The position numbers were made by a program, and so were the translations under genes. A DNA stretch of 51,987 bases from Terriglobia bacterium. Lineage in GTDB: Bacteria; Acidobacteriota; Terriglobia; Bryobacterales; Bryobacteraceae. The DNA is taken from the NCBI GenBank assembly GCA_025363475.1, contig JANYDS010000055.1:1-51987 (forward strand). Reading direction: 5' to 3'. Shown piece after piece: positions 21,438 to 25,806 of this stretch. The notes beneath the pieces are model-generated. The model searched no databases. It was not told the DNA's origin and saw only the letters and a list, made by a program, of their open reading frames with translations. How positions within the stretch are numbered: the stretch's first letter is position 1; each line of letters opens with the position of its first letter.

Positions 21438-22772
21438 TTGTCCAGGAACCAAAATAACGAACTCATCCGCGCCCATGGCCTTGCCTCGCTGGTCATGCTG
21501 TTCGTGGCGGTGCTGTTTGGCATCTTCGCGTCAGCCGAAATGTGGAAGCCCGAACTCAGCGGAGGCATCGCAGCGCTCACGTGGGGCCGCCTGCGTTATG
21601 ACCACACTCAGGGCATCCTTTTCGGCTGGTTGGGCAACGCCTTCTTCGCGTTCCTCTATCACGCCGTGCCGATCCTCACAGGCCGGCCCGTAACCAGCAA
21701 CACACTCGGCCGCTGGATGTTCGGCATCTGGAATTTCGCCATCGTGATCCCCGGCTGGACGCTGGTTCTTGCAGGCTTTAGCCAACCGCTGGAATGGGCA
21801 GAATTTCCCGTCGTGGTGGACATCTTCGTAGTCCTCGCGCTGCTGCTTGCGCTCATTCAGTTTCTGCCGGTTTTTTTCAAAGACGGGCTCGAAGACACGT
21901 ACGTTGCGGGCTGGTATGTGATCGGTGGTCTGGTCTTCACCACTCTTTCCTATCCCATGGGGAACTTCGTGCCGGAATTTCTGCCCGGCGCGCGGGGTGC
22001 AGCGTTCAGCGGTCTCTGGATTCACGATGCAGTCGGACTCTTCGTCACGCCCCTTGCGCTCGCCATCATCTATTACGTAATTCCAGCGTCAACCGGCAGG
22101 CCCGTTTACAGCCACTTCCTCTCGATGCTGGGCTTTTGGCTGCTCTTCTTTCTCTATCCGCTCAACGGGACACATCACTACGTCTTTTCAGTGATTCCGA
22201 TGGACGCACAGAAGGGCGCGATCCTTGCCTCATCCCTGCTGGGCGTAGACGTCATCATCGTTGTCGCCAACCTGTTCCTGTCCCTGCGCGGTACCGGCTG
22301 GTTCGCGCGCGATCTGCCCCTGCGATTCGTAGCGACGGCGACAATGTTCTACCTGATCGTGAGCATTCAGGGCTCCCTGCAGGCGCAGATGGCGATCAAC
22401 GGAACGGTTCACTTTACAGACTGGGTCATCGGCCACTCTCACCTCGCCATGTTGGGCTTCGCCACCTTCGCAGCAGCGGGTGGACTCACCCACGCGTGGC
22501 GCAAAATGCCCGGTGCCCGCTTCAATCCTCGCGCCGTCGAATGGGCTTACTGGCTCATCACTACCGGGCTGCTTCTCATGTTCGTGGATCTCACGGCGGC
22601 GGGGCTGATCGAAGCACGCGAGTGGAAAGCGCAGACTCCCTGGATTGATTCGGTGCGGGCTGTGCGTGGTTACTGGATCTTCCGCACCGCAACGGCCCTG
22701 CCGATCACGGCAGGCTTCGTCGCCCTGCTGGCCGGACTCCTGACCGGCGACAGAGTCGGGGAATCCCGATGA
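21438..22772 (+). CDS. ccoN: cbb3-type cytochrome c oxidase subunit I
   Basis: A 444-residue haem-copper oxidase core with about twelve helices. Haem and copper ligands can be placed: His56 (DHTQG), His196 in WIHDAVGLFVTP, His246-His247 in NGTHHYVF, and His333/His335 in IGHSHLAML. The segment RPVYSH keeps a Tyr near the position of the cross-linked Tyr of cbb3 enzymes. This places it in the C family, in a divergent group (HDAVGLF rather than the canonical HNAVGFF). It reduces oxygen to water with high affinity in known members. The start is a TTG at 21438 because no ATG lies upstream in frame. Confidence 0.88.
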   Translation: MSRNQNNELIRAHGLASLVMLFVAVLFGIFASAEMWKPELSGGIAALTWGRLRYDHTQGILFGWLGNAFFAFLYHAVPILTGRPVTSNTLGRWMFGIWNFAIVIPGWTLVLAGFSQPLEWAEFPVVVDIFVVLALLLALIQFLPVFFKDGLEDTYVAGWYVIGGLVFTTLSYPMGNFVPEFLPGARGAAFSGLWIHDAVGLFVTPLALAIIYYVIPASTGRPVYSHFLSMLGFWLLFFLYPLNGTHHYVFSVIPMDAQKGAILASSLLGVDVIIVVANLFLSLRGTGWFARDLPLRFVATATMFYLIVSIQGSLQAQMAINGTVHFTDWVIGHSHLAMLGFATFAAAGGLTHAWRKMPGARFNPRAVEWAYWLITTGLLLMFVDLTAAGLIEAREWKAQTPWIDSVRAVRGYWIFRTATALPITAGFVALLAGLLTGDRVGESR

Positions 22773-23848
22773 AATCTCTCCGCATGTCCTATCTGGTGGC
22801 CGGCCTCGGTGGTGTTGGATTCTTCGCTATGTCTGTGCTTCTGCTGGGAGTCTGGCCGGGGCGTGTACTTGAGGAAGAAACACGCAGAACCTCACCCAAA
22901 AACCCTTTGGCCCTGACAGTGAGCGAAAAGCGCGGTCGTCAGATCTATGCCCGCGAAGGGTGCGCCTACTGCCACACTCAGCAGATTCGCCAGCTCGATG
23001 CCGATACCGTCCGCTTCGGCAAATCGACCGCCGTCTGGGAAACACAATTCGACTACCCGCACCTCTGGGGTACGCGCCGCATCGGGCCGGATCTTTCCCG
23101 CGAAGGCTCACTGCATTCTGAGGACTGGCAACTCACCCATCTCTATTCGCCGCAAGCCGTAGTGCCTGATTCTGTGATGCCTGCCTTCCCCGCACTGTTC
23201 GATGGAGCGCCAGACCGGCCTTTGCAAGGTGCCCGCGACGTGGTGACCTATCTTGCCGGCCTGGGCTACGCGCGAGCATTGGCTGAACCGGAAATCGCTC
23301 TCAAGAAAACCTCAGGCCCTCCTGCGAATGGTGACGATGCCTACGCCCACAATTGCGCGGGCTGCCACGGCCCTCACGGGGAAGGCGATGGTCCGGCTGC
23401 GGCGGGACTCAGTCCCAAACCTGCCAATCTGGTGGAGCATGAATACACGGAAGCACATGTCATAACGGTGCTTGAACGCGGCATTAGAGGCAGTTCCATG
23501 CAGGCCTGGCGCGGGCTTCCGCATCACGACATCGCCCACACTGTGCGCGGTTTCTACCGTCCCGTTCGCGAACCTGCTCCGCCCCCCGCGATCCGCGATC
23601 TGGGCAAACAGGTTTACGCCGACCATTGCGCCCAGTGCCACGGGGAAAATGGAGATGGCAAAGGTTCCGCCGCGCCGGAAGTTCGCATGGCCCCGACAGA
23701 TTTCACCTCCGAACGCCCCACCCCTGCCGAGACCTTGCGTGCCCTGCGCCAGGGAGTGGCAGGTACTCCGATGGCTCCGTGGAACACTAAACTTAGTGAA
23801 GCGGAACTATCCGCCGTGGCTTACTACGTGAGAGGTTTTTATCGATGA
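22769..23848 (+). CDS. CcoO-CcoP fusion: trihaem cytochrome c subunit of cbb3-type oxidase
   Basis: A 359-residue protein with one N-terminal membrane helix (about 8-29). The first c-type domain is CcoO-like: GCAYCHTQQIR (Cys65, Cys68, His69), DYPHLWGTRRIGPDLSREG, and the Met ligand in DSVMPAFP. Two further cytochrome domains follow as in CcoP, with CAGCH (196-200) and CAQCH (287-291). In most bacteria CcoO and CcoP are separate proteins with their own membrane anchors; here one anchor carries three haems. The gene overlaps ccoN by 4 nt, and its own last 4 nt overlap the next gene. Confidence 0.9.
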   Translation: MKSLRMSYLVAGLGGVGFFAMSVLLLGVWPGRVLEEETRRTSPKNPLALTVSEKRGRQIYAREGCAYCHTQQIRQLDADTVRFGKSTAVWETQFDYPHLWGTRRIGPDLSREGSLHSEDWQLTHLYSPQAVVPDSVMPAFPALFDGAPDRPLQGARDVVTYLAGLGYARALAEPEIALKKTSGPPANGDDAYAHNCAGCHGPHGEGDGPAAAGLSPKPANLVEHEYTEAHVITVLERGIRGSSMQAWRGLPHHDIAHTVRGFYRPVREPAPPPAIRDLGKQVYADHCAQCHGENGDGKGSAAPEVRMAPTDFTSERPTPAETLRALRQGVAGTPMAPWNTKLSEAELSAVAYYVRGFYR

Positions 23849-24726
23849 TCAACATTCGCGGCATGCGTGAATCTGATACCGCCGAAGCCTCACGAATTTT
23901 CCGTCTGGCTTTCGGTACTTTCCTTGGCCTGCCGGATCCGAATTCTTTCTCCGCGGGCCGCGAATACATAGCCACGCGCTTCCACGCCGACCCGGGCGCA
24001 GCCTTAGTGGCGGAAACGGACGGTAAGCTGGTCGGCTCAAATTTGGTCACGATCTGGGGTAGTTTTGGGACGTTTGGACCGCTGACGACACGCCCTGAAT
24101 TCTGGGACAAAGGTGTTGGCAGCGCCCTCCTCGGCCCCACCATAGACCTGTTTGACCAGCGCGGTGTTCGCGAAGCCGGACTCTTTACCTTTGTCCAAAG
24201 TCCGAAGCACCTGGCTCTCTACCAGAAGTTCGGCTTCTGGCCCGGTTTTCTGATCGGAGTCGCAGCCAAACCTGTGGCAAAGGCCGCACCCTGGATTAGA
24301 CATTCACCCTCCGCCGCCGCTGAATGTCCTGCTCTGACCAACTCCATATTCGAAGGTCTCAGCCTAAGTGTTGAAATCAACTCCGTCGAAGCCCAGGGTC
24401 TGGGCGAAACGGTACTCGTAACGGGCGGCATGGCCATCTGCCACTGCGGCGAAAGGACGGAGGCCGGGCCTGGCACCTGCTACATCAAATTCGCCTGCGC
24501 ACAAGGCCCCCGCGAATTCCAGCGCCTGCTCGAAGCCTGCGAAGGGCTCGCCTTTGACCGGGGCCTCACACGCCTTGAAACCGGCGTGAATTTCGAACGC
24601 ATCGAAGCGTACCAGGCCTTGATGGCGAATGGCTGCCGCGTCGAACGCCAGGCCCTGGCCATGCACCGCAACGGGCTGCGGGCGTATAACAGGAGAGACG
24701 TCTATGCACTCGATGACTGGCGCTAG
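23845..24726 (+). CDS. Double-GNAT acetyltransferase-like protein
   Basis: A 293-residue cytoplasmic protein. The N-terminal GNAT domain reads MINIRGMRESDTAEASRIFRLAFG, with acetyl-CoA-binding-type segment FWDKGVGSALLGP and LYQKFGFWPG. The second half (from about residue 170) repeats the fold in a degenerate form with LEACEGLAFDRGLTRLETGVNFERIEAYQALMANG. No target can be assigned. It sits inside the oxidase cluster with 4-nt coupling to the CcoOP gene, which is an unexpected neighbour for a respiratory enzyme. Confidence 0.8.
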   Translation: MINIRGMRESDTAEASRIFRLAFGTFLGLPDPNSFSAGREYIATRFHADPGAALVAETDGKLVGSNLVTIWGSFGTFGPLTTRPEFWDKGVGSALLGPTIDLFDQRGVREAGLFTFVQSPKHLALYQKFGFWPGFLIGVAAKPVAKAAPWIRHSPSAAAECPALTNSIFEGLSLSVEINSVEAQGLGETVLVTGGMAICHCGERTEAGPGTCYIKFACAQGPREFQRLLEACEGLAFDRGLTRLETGVNFERIEAYQALMANGCRVERQALAMHRNGLRAYNRRDVYALDDWR

Positions 24727-24862
24727 TTTCAACGCAATGGACGCCATAGTGGGCGTGGCAATTGCACTGGCGCTTGCGTTCGTAGTCGCGTGGCTTGTGT
24801 CGCCGAAGTTGCGGGTACGTCTGGAAGAGCCCAAATTCCGCTTCCAGGAACGTCTGAAATGA
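24704..24862 (+). CDS. 52-residue single-pass membrane protein in the oxidase cluster
   Basis: A micro-protein starting MHSMTGASFNAMDAIVG, with one transmembrane helix (VGVAIALALAFVVAWLV) and a charged C-terminal tail (SPKLRVRLEEPKFRFQERLK). AGGAGA (24691-24696) lies 7 nt before the ATG and decides the start. The gene overlaps the GNAT gene by 23 nt and its last 4 nt overlap the TsdA-like gene. Size, topology and location resemble the small CcoQ/CcoH-like accessory subunits of cbb3 oxidases, but there is no sequence motif to prove it. Confidence 0.72.
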   Translation: MHSMTGASFNAMDAIVGVAIALALAFVVAWLVSPKLRVRLEEPKFRFQERLK

Positions 24863-25806
24863 AAGGCTTCACCAGCATCATCCTCGCCTGCTGTGCCATC
24901 GGCGCGTTGACCGTCGGGGCAACGCTGCGAATGGCCGAAACCACTCCCGAAGCCAGCAATATCCCTGTGATCGCCACTGAAGAATATGGCAAACGCCTGT
25001 TGGCCCAAACGCCGGAACTGCTGGGTCCGGATGTCGCCGACCCGAAGATGCGATACACAGAGAGTCGCCTCTCCTGTGGTTCCTGCCACCTTGGCACTGG
25101 AGCCGAGCCAGGCACTCTGAGTCTGCCCGAAACCATCCACCACTATCCCCGGTTTTCTGCCCGGGTCGGACTGTCCACCACCATTGAGGACCGCGTCAAC
25201 GAATGCATGCAGCGCAGCATGAACGGGCGGCCTCTGCCGAAAAACAGCGCCGAGATGCTCGCCATGGCGGCCTATATCCGGTCACTCGGCTACCACGATG
25301 CCGCCGCCGGAGCCAACCACCGCAAGGCCAAAGAACCCCCCGCCTTCAAGACTCCGAACCGCGCGGCCGACCTGAAAGCGGGCAAAAAAATCATTGAAGA
25401 GAAGTGCGCGTCCTGCCATCAGGCTGACGGTTCCGGGCTCCTCGCCGCCGCCCTTCCCATTCATGGCTACGTTTTCCCTCCGCTTTGGGGGCCAGACAGT
25501 TTCAATACCGGGGCCGGAATGCATCGCGTTCTGACCTCCGCCCGGTTTATCAAAGCGCGCATGCCGCTAGGCAAACCGGACCTCACCAACGACGAAGCCT
25601 TTGACGCTGCTGGCTATATCAACTCCCAGCCACGCCCCGAAATGGCCCACCTTGACCTCGACTATCCGGATCGCAAAACGAAGCCAATCGATAACGGGTA
25701 CGGTCCGTTTGCGGATCCGTTCCCGCTGGAGCAGCATCGGTTCGGGCCGTTCGCCCCCATCGAAAGTTTTTACAAAATGAAGCCAATTTCTACATCAACG
25801 CGGTAA
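24859..25806 (+). CDS. TsdA-like dihaem cytochrome c (possible thiosulfate dehydrogenase)
   Basis: A 315-residue exported protein (signal about 6-22). Haem 1 motif is CGSCH (73-77), haem 2 motif is CASCH (183-187). Between them RVNECMQRSMNGRPLP matches the TsdA pattern in which a Cys (here Cys116) is the unusual axial ligand of haem 1. TsdA joins two thiosulfates into tetrathionate and gives the electrons to cytochromes. Being in the same operon as ccoN and ccoOP, it could feed this oxidase directly. Substrate is inferred from motif only. Confidence 0.8.
   Translation: MKGFTSIILACCAIGALTVGATLRMAETTPEASNIPVIATEEYGKRLLAQTPELLGPDVADPKMRYTESRLSCGSCHLGTGAEPGTLSLPETIHHYPRFSARVGLSTTIEDRVNECMQRSMNGRPLPKNSAEMLAMAAYIRSLGYHDAAAGANHRKAKEPPAFKTPNRAADLKAGKKIIEEKCASCHQADGSGLLAAALPIHGYVFPPLWGPDSFNTGAGMHRVLTSARFIKARMPLGKPDLTNDEAFDAAGYINSQPRPEMAHLDLDYPDRKTKPIDNGYGPFADPFPLEQHRFGPFAPIESFYKMKPISTSTR

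Follow-up and report, generated by a model that had tools for sequence, protein, structure and literature searches.

A clade of divergent cbb3-type oxidases, found in a Terriglobia bacterium, whose genes are linked to those of TsdA or SorAB

Oxidases of the cbb3 type are usually viewed as enzymes of high affinity that work at low oxygen and draw electrons from the general cytochrome c pool, and the cb-oxidase of Campylobacter jejuni is also of the C family of haem-copper oxidases. For TsdBA, in which the dihaem thiosulfate dehydrogenase TsdA has a dihaem partner cytochrome, electron transfer from TsdB to a cbb3 oxidase has been suggested (PMC9237845). Here we analyzed a stretch of 51,987 nucleotides (nt) from a Terriglobia bacterium (assembly GCA_025363475.1, contig JANYDS010000055.1, positions 1–51,987, forward strand), hereafter the window, from a genome (G000) of 4.16 Mb in 96 contigs that is 96% complete. 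It carries an operon encoding both a divergent cbb3-type oxidase and a TsdA-like cytochrome. This oxidase belongs to a clade in which linkage to TsdA, or to SorAB in its place, is conserved. We consider it likely that the operon would encode a dedicated, self-contained thiosulfate:oxygen respiratory module.

The operon comprises five overlapping frames on the + strand at 21438–25806, for CcoN, a CcoO–CcoP fusion (CcoOP), a GNAT acetyltransferase, a small protein and TsdA. Successive overlaps are 4, 4, 23 and 4 nt, as the initial annotation had described.

21438..22772, + strand: ccoN-like gene, subunit I of a C-family haem-copper oxidase; TTG start, 444 amino acids; COX1 match at 1.8e-58
22769..23848, + strand: CcoO–CcoP fusion; 359 amino acids; FixO (1.3e-37) and Cytochrome_CBB3 domains; three CXXCH motifs
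23845..24726, + strand: GNAT acetyltransferase; 293 amino acids; Acetyltransf_1; probably outside the module
24704..24862, + strand: small protein, full frame as initially annotated; 52 amino acids
24737..24862, + strand: conserved core of the small one-helix protein; 41 amino acids from the ATG at 24737, as defined by an alignment of homologues
24859..25806, + strand: tsdA-like gene, dihaem thiosulfate dehydrogenase; 315 amino acids; N-terminal hydrophobic segment; SoxA–TsdA cytochrome domain at 2.1e-13

Promoter and terminator scans gave no signal exceeding that of shuffles. The order CcoN–CcoOP–small protein–TsdA recurs in many genomes, so the gene arrangement is not due to chance; of the five-gene order proposed initially, only the GNAT gene is peculiar to this genome.

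We searched 200 genomes of the same order, the window's own included, with the window CcoN. This gave 21 close relatives, again with the own genome, at 53–100% identity. CcoN and CcoOP are separate in 15 of them (split type) and form one fused frame in six; five of these frames have 864–898 amino acids, and that of G147 is truncated where its contig begins. Any CcoN match at E 1e-3 was found in 99 of the 200 genomes, 78 of which have more distant oxidases. In a phylum scan of 396 genomes, 79 matched at E 1e-25, of which 11 belong to the clade, and a class scan of 399 genomes gave 24 matches at E 1e-100; the order, phylum and class samples overlap, and few candidates were scored per genome. Only two genomes of the same class outside the window's order, G526 and G585, had a CcoN match at E 1e-25 in the phylum scan, and both are of the clade. 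As counted here, the clade consists of 41 loci, from 39 genomes and two plasmids; the count excludes an Acetobacter plasmid, which nearly duplicates that of Komagataeibacter, as well as the further Paraburkholderia records. Placed in a C-family tree of 55 rows, as foreseen in the initial annotation, the window CcoN falls in a clade of 40 with 100/100 support, in which the plasmid oxidases branch first under midpoint rooting; the SorAB and TsdA branches have no firm branching order in this tree.

TsdA is encoded in 27 of the 41 clade loci (25 downstream and two upstream), and SorA stands upstream in its place in six, all on the oxidase strand and at E 1e-20 or better. One or the other is present in all untruncated clade loci (33/33). 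By contrast, control C-family loci outside the clade contained neither at E 1e-20 (0/33 for TsdA, 0/33 for SorA). These controls are a non-random set of 33 loci with wider flanks, from which the distant, short-flank loci L093–L104 were left out; one or both flanks are shorter than 3.5 kb in six of them and 4 kb long in a further four, which are canonical plasmid loci. One control, L044, gave a single weak match at E 1e-5 whose identity is unassigned. These counts support the initial proposal, made from the window alone, of a possible thiosulfate dehydrogenase built into the oxidase operon. In all eight loci with neither gene (L002, L067, L070, L073, L075, L076, L173 and L175), the contig ends no more than 3 kb from CcoN in one direction or both. 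L076 and L175 lack TsdA over the 6.5 and 5.1 kb available downstream, and have nothing upstream. The search for TsdA elsewhere in the genome covered six of the eight. For three of these, TsdA was found on another contig that starts in the expected neighbour gene (L128, L129 and L136), and for a fourth, that of G147, it lies in the middle of a contig elsewhere (L135).

The co-occurrence extends to whole genomes. TsdA was present in 23 of the 200 order genomes and, at an identity of at least 59%, in 14, all of which are among the 15 with the split-type oxidase (Fisher's exact test for co-occurrence, p 1.3e-20, uncorrected for kinship). Four of the other nine (G121, G076, G147 and G144) have a fused oxidase. 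The two proteins have also diverged in parallel: CcoN and TsdA tree distances correlate with r 0.93 over 24 linked pairs (0/2000 permutations), a correlation to which shared species history contributes.

In the six loci with SorAB, SorA and then SorB precede a fused CcoN–CcoOP frame (L071, L119, L171, L172, L174 and L176). The two reference loci are as follows.

L119:5175-6835: SorAB genes in place of TsdA, directly upstream of the fused oxidase
L071:8360-9942: SorAB genes in place of TsdA, directly upstream of the fused oxidase

In L119 and L071, the NCBIfam models of SorA (445 and 462 bits, cut-off 600; E 1.5e-133 and 1.9e-138) and SorB (71 and 77 bits, cut-off 93; E 6.5e-20 and 1.3e-21) were the best matches, though under their equivalog cut-offs. 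The other four loci were identified by identity to these two (54–78% for SorA, 41–73% for SorB). A further locus, L060, has TsdA plus a SorA-like gene (31% identity) on the same strand, 4.1 kb downstream of CcoN and past TsdA and a rhodanese gene; judging by its genes, it may hold both dehydrogenases.

The solved structure nearest to the product of the last gene is Allochromatium vinosum TsdA (E about 2e-38), and Pfam recognized a second cytochrome c domain besides that of the SoxA–TsdA family. The window protein has the haem ligand Cys116 as well as Arg102, Arg112, Ser120 and Met235. Across the 27 linked TsdAs, Cys116, both CXXCH motifs, Arg112, Ser120 and the haem-2 Met are present without exception, and Arg102 is present in 25, with Lys in the other two. 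The TsdA-type dihaem cytochrome with its Cys-ligand segment was correctly recognized at the outset. Roles have been described for the active-site Arg pair and the thiosulfate-binding residues of TsdA, together with a Ser that is exclusive to TsdA as compared with SoxA (PMC4423706); since this Ser is kept, we rejected an assignment as SoxA.

The oxidase partner likewise retains its active-site residues. CcoN matched the CcoN of solved cbb3 oxidases (best E 3.1e-36) and CcoOP matched their CcoO (E 2.4e-29). CcoN is divergent, as first noted: it matches COX1, yet reaches 159.7 bits against the NCBIfam ccoN equivalog, far under the cut-off of 583.15. We aligned positions via the solved cbb3 subunits in 40 clade rows, leaving out the partial L076, and in the 33 control rows. 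H56, H196, Y240, H246, H247, H333 and H335, which we take to be the His ligands of haem b, haem b3 and CuB and the cross-link Tyr of helix VII, are invariant (40/40 and 33/33), as are Y212, S229 and Y305, presumably the residues of a single K-type proton channel. We considered whether the divergent CcoN might be a nitric oxide reductase and rejected this, since the helix-VII Tyr and all ligands are retained. The position of the canonical Glu, which we assume corresponds to position 323 of Pseudomonas stutzeri CcoN, is Gln in 38 of the 40 clade rows; as the same holds for 28 of the 33 controls, this Gln does not mark the clade.

CcoOP is a single chain with one N-terminal hydrophobic segment as its membrane anchor, a FixO mono-haem subunit II domain (PF02433) and two cytochrome c domains recognized by Pfam, and is thus distinct from separately anchored CcoO and CcoP. 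The single-anchor, three-haem fusion seen at the outset in the window is conserved in the clade, in part of which CcoN is joined to it too. A predicted structure of a natural CcoN–CcoOP fusion (nine-sequence alignment) was too poor to be used (mean predicted local distance difference test score 59, predicted template modelling score 0.52). G000 has six COX1 matches, of which three are much stronger than, and two partial besides, the window's ccoN, and only the latter matches the CcoN query at E 1e-3. No match to the assembly factor CcoG (PF11614) was found in this 96% complete genome; among 14 control genomes, three matched, one of them above the cut-off. Another haem-copper oxidase subunit I of G000 (G000:C51:47990-49329; L007 and L008) is apparently split into two overlapping frames, which may come from a frameshift, from an error in assembly or from a genuine break.

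The small protein was described initially as a membrane protein of 52 residues. The frame is real and has one helix, but the conserved part is only the 41 amino acids from the ATG at 24737, the first 11 codons having no counterpart in most relatives. Most members share the motif E-x-P-K-[YF]-x-F near the C terminus. No Pfam family matched the window protein, and FixQ matched only the plasmid homologue, weakly (E 0.0072; 16.7 bits, under the cut-off of 29). In position and predicted topology the protein resembles CcoQ, and it may be a CcoQ-like accessory oxidase subunit. It is present in 34 of the 41 clade loci at E 1e-3, and in L071 with another query setting. Of the six loci where it was not detected, four are truncated and two, L114 and L116, are not, so it is not indispensable. 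Since all six SorAB loci keep it, the small protein belongs with the oxidase and not with TsdA; we rejected a role as TsdA partner on this ground and because a related tail occurs in the sister group. There, L121–L127 encode CcoN and CcoO-like proteins together with a small membrane protein of greater length, with the same kind of C-terminal motif in L123, and neither TsdA nor SorA was found nearby.

The GNAT gene is absent from this position in the other 40 clade loci. It is present as a single copy in G000, between CcoOP and the small protein, and overlaps CcoOP by 4 nt, as the small gene itself does in relatives such as L001. Its description as a double GNAT does not hold, as Pfam found one acetyltransferase stretch, at residues 42–131, and no second at E 1 or better. 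Homologues (45–56% identity) occur in 16 of the other 199 order genomes; three of the 16 also have the oxidase (G192, G136 and G095), but on a different contig from the homologue. We therefore rejected the protein as a subunit modifier that is a general part of the module; it is probably a chance insertion in this genome and a bystander, which the initial annotation had allowed for.

Members of the clade also occur on plasmids. CcoNs 55–57% identical to that of the window are encoded by plasmids from Komagataeibacter xylinus, Acetobacter ascendens and Paraburkholderia fungorum. In K. xylinus E25 the operon is carried by pGX3, and another plasmid of this strain has the ccoN gene as well. The Komagataeibacter and Acetobacter plasmids have the order DsrE, two binding proteins, dihaem cytochrome, TsdA, CcoN, CcoOP and small protein; on the Paraburkholderia plasmid, the last five genes keep this order, and those for DsrE and the binding proteins have changed places around them. 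The operon is almost identical on the K. xylinus (L105, CP004363.1) and A. ascendens (L108, NZ_CP015167.1) plasmids, where it adjoins relaxase, toxin–antitoxin and transposase genes, which suggests a recent transfer between the two genera. Relatives also have further sulfur genes around the module: rhodanese (L060, L062, L063, L068, L069 and L129), DsrE-family proteins that are apparently exported, a beta-lactamase-hydrolase-like phosphatase, and binding proteins close to the models for ModA (molybdate), sulfate and CysP. The clusters labelled DsrE13 and DsrE17 lack any Pfam match, so their identity as DsrE is unsupported despite the labels. Against NF052225, a model named thiosulfate dehydrogenase, DsrE17 scored 99.8 bits (cut-off 300) and DsrE13 19.4 bits, too weak to use. 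Members of cluster 17 (L072:9689-10390 and relatives), encoded between oxidase and TsdA, are apparently exported, distant relatives of NF052225 and thus candidates for a second thiosulfate enzyme or a sulfur-binding partner. A search of G000 with NF052225 gave no match and was uninformative, as the controls gave none either; two DsrE-family matches lie elsewhere in that genome.

Two other groups of plasmids deserve mention. On those of Hymenobacter (L110 and L141), TsdA, DsrE and two binding proteins form a block with no clade oxidase adjoining, and a gene of L141 annotated as 'cbb3' had no match to the window CcoN; the sulfur part seems to exist as a unit of its own. The rhizobial plasmid loci L106 (Sinorhizobium meliloti pSymA) and L109 (Phyllobacterium) carry a divergent cbb3-like oxidase, 35–37% identical to the window CcoN, beside groEL, SCO and metal P-type ATPase genes.

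In the thiosulfate:oxygen module that we propose, TsdA, embedded in the periplasmic side of the membrane or attached there by a tether, would use its His/Cys haem to oxidize two molecules of thiosulfate to one of tetrathionate. The electrons would leave TsdA through the second haem, run along the trihaem CcoOP and reach haem b and the haem b3–CuB site of CcoN, where O2 would be reduced to water. The small one-helix protein would be a CcoQ-like accessory subunit and GNAT a bystander, and the dehydrogenase would be exchangeable, with the sulfite dehydrogenase SorAB at the place of TsdA in one part of the clade. We infer that electron transfer from TsdA to the oxidase is direct, that the two form a physical complex, and that the module is used either for energy or to dispose of sulfur compounds. 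A bolder version, which we hold only tentatively and with some doubt, is a clade of sulfur-oxyanion oxidases on whose CcoOP TsdA or SorAB would be permanently docked, as a thiosulfate:O2 or sulfite:O2 supercomplex without free cytochrome c, with the dehydrogenase exchangeable and the unit mobile on plasmids; a stable supercomplex is possible.

Several observations weigh against the proposed thiosulfate:oxygen module. TsdAs of the split type form one clade with those of the fused loci L114 and L116 (Shimodaira–Hasegawa-like approximate likelihood ratio test 99), and those of the other fused types and the plasmids are separate lineages outside it. The pairing may for this reason have arisen repeatedly; TsdA may have been acquired more than once, or may have diverged fast. 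G136 and G172, which have the oxidase in contig-cut loci, gave no TsdA in the genome at E 1e-10, with at most 11 candidates scored per genome, and five of the 200 order genomes (G074, G057, G105, G094 and G170) have a TsdA (35–45%) and no oxidase of the clade. None of the extra sulfur genes flanks the operon in the window. Moreover, TsdA enzymes operate in both directions, and the residues neighbouring haem 2 vary and affect the direction (PMC5146829). The residue preceding the haem-2 Met, which is Lys in A. vinosum and Asn in the tetrathionate-reducing C. jejuni TsdA (PMC5146829), varies here: 12 of the 27 linked sequences have Arg, 7 have Lys and 8 have Asn.

These eight Asn residues, as in C. 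jejuni, would suit a TsdA that acts as a tetrathionate reductase, or as a plain carrier like C. jejuni CccC, a reported donor to the cb-oxidase (PMC5146829), with the oxidase fed from quinol via cytochrome c. However, CccC has Met for the Cys ligand (PMC5146829), which is Cys in all of our 27 sequences, and replacement by the oxidizing SorAB fits the oxidizing direction; we regard this alternative as very unlikely. The direction of TsdA is unreadable from the sequence as such, and it is the oxidase partner and the exchange with SorAB that point to oxidation. A substrate other than thiosulfate, such as a persulfide, polysulfide or organic thiosulfonate, in a module serving mainly sulfur detoxification has somewhat more in its favour. 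The DsrE, rhodanese, phosphatase and binding-protein genes cluster with the module in relatives, and G000 has no match to the RuBisCO large chain, so that autotrophic growth on sulfur through RuBisCO is not indicated. Against it, the thiosulfate-binding residues of A. vinosum TsdA (PMC4423706) are conserved, and SorAB in the place of TsdA points to simple sulfur oxyanions; we judge it improbable. The GNAT gene illustrates how an unrelated gene can enter the operon, and an ordinary cbb3 oxidase might by the same route have gained a TsdA neighbour to which it has no functional tie. Such hitch-hiking is hardly credible given the presence of TsdA or SorA in every untruncated clade locus and in none of the controls at E 1e-20, and given that the same neighbourhood recurs in different families of the phylum and on plasmids from two classes of proteobacteria.

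If the proposed module operates in this way, a whole oxidase clade would be tied to one kind of electron donor instead of the general pool, and oxidation of thiosulfate or sulfite coupled to O2 is predicted in Acidobacteriota. The acetic acid bacteria with the plasmid-borne operon would be culturable test cases, and the clade offers a natural experiment in dehydrogenase exchange. A study of two acidobacteria reports no detected cbb3 expression at micro- and nanomolar O2, except for low transcription at 10 micromolar and a short reverse-transcription quantitative PCR signal that reached as low as 0.1 micromolar in A. capsulatum, and does not settle when these oxidases are used (PMC8407424). As G526 and G585, from the same class and other orders, are of the clade, it is plausible but no more that those oxidases are too, in which case a sulfur-linked use might explain the absent low-O2 response. 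For seven peatland acidobacterial metagenome-assembled genomes, one study reported that tsdA is absent and that distant soxCD/sorAB-like genes occur in four (PMC6018796). Titles and abstract openings among the literature matches listed revealed no operon of cbb3 oxidase with TsdA or SorAB, although an earlier description is possible. The component proteins themselves are known; these matches contained no account of the dedicated operon, of the rule that holds throughout the clade or of the exchange between TsdA and SorAB.

Compared with canonical cbb3 oxidases (ccoNOQP), the clade shares the complete set of haem and CuB ligands and the helix-VII Tyr in CcoN, a FixO domain, a CcoP-like dihaem part and a one-helix small protein, here a putative subunit. 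It differs in that CcoO and CcoP are fused behind one anchor, with CcoN fused too in part of the clade, in having a sulfur dehydrogenase inside the operon and, for G000, in the lack of a detected ccoG domain; the window CcoN is 27–30% identical to four canonical plasmid CcoNs. With the TsdA and TsdBA systems of A. vinosum, Thiomonas, P. stutzeri and Halomonas it has in common the dihaem TsdA, the Cys ligand and the Arg/Ser active site, as well as a dihaem partner cytochrome in the plasmid form. Whereas electrons are reported to go to separate cytochromes in those systems, the oxidase here shares the operon. The SorA and SorB genes of SorAB sulfite dehydrogenase occur in six clade relatives, the window operon having no SorA; they stand directly upstream of the fused CcoN–CcoOP, where TsdA would be. 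The pair of CccC and cb-oxidase in C. jejuni also joins a TsdA-family cytochrome to an oxidase (PMC5146829), one of the C family, but CccC lacks the Cys ligand and is an electron carrier rather than a thiosulfate dehydrogenase, whereas the TsdAs of the clade keep that Cys.

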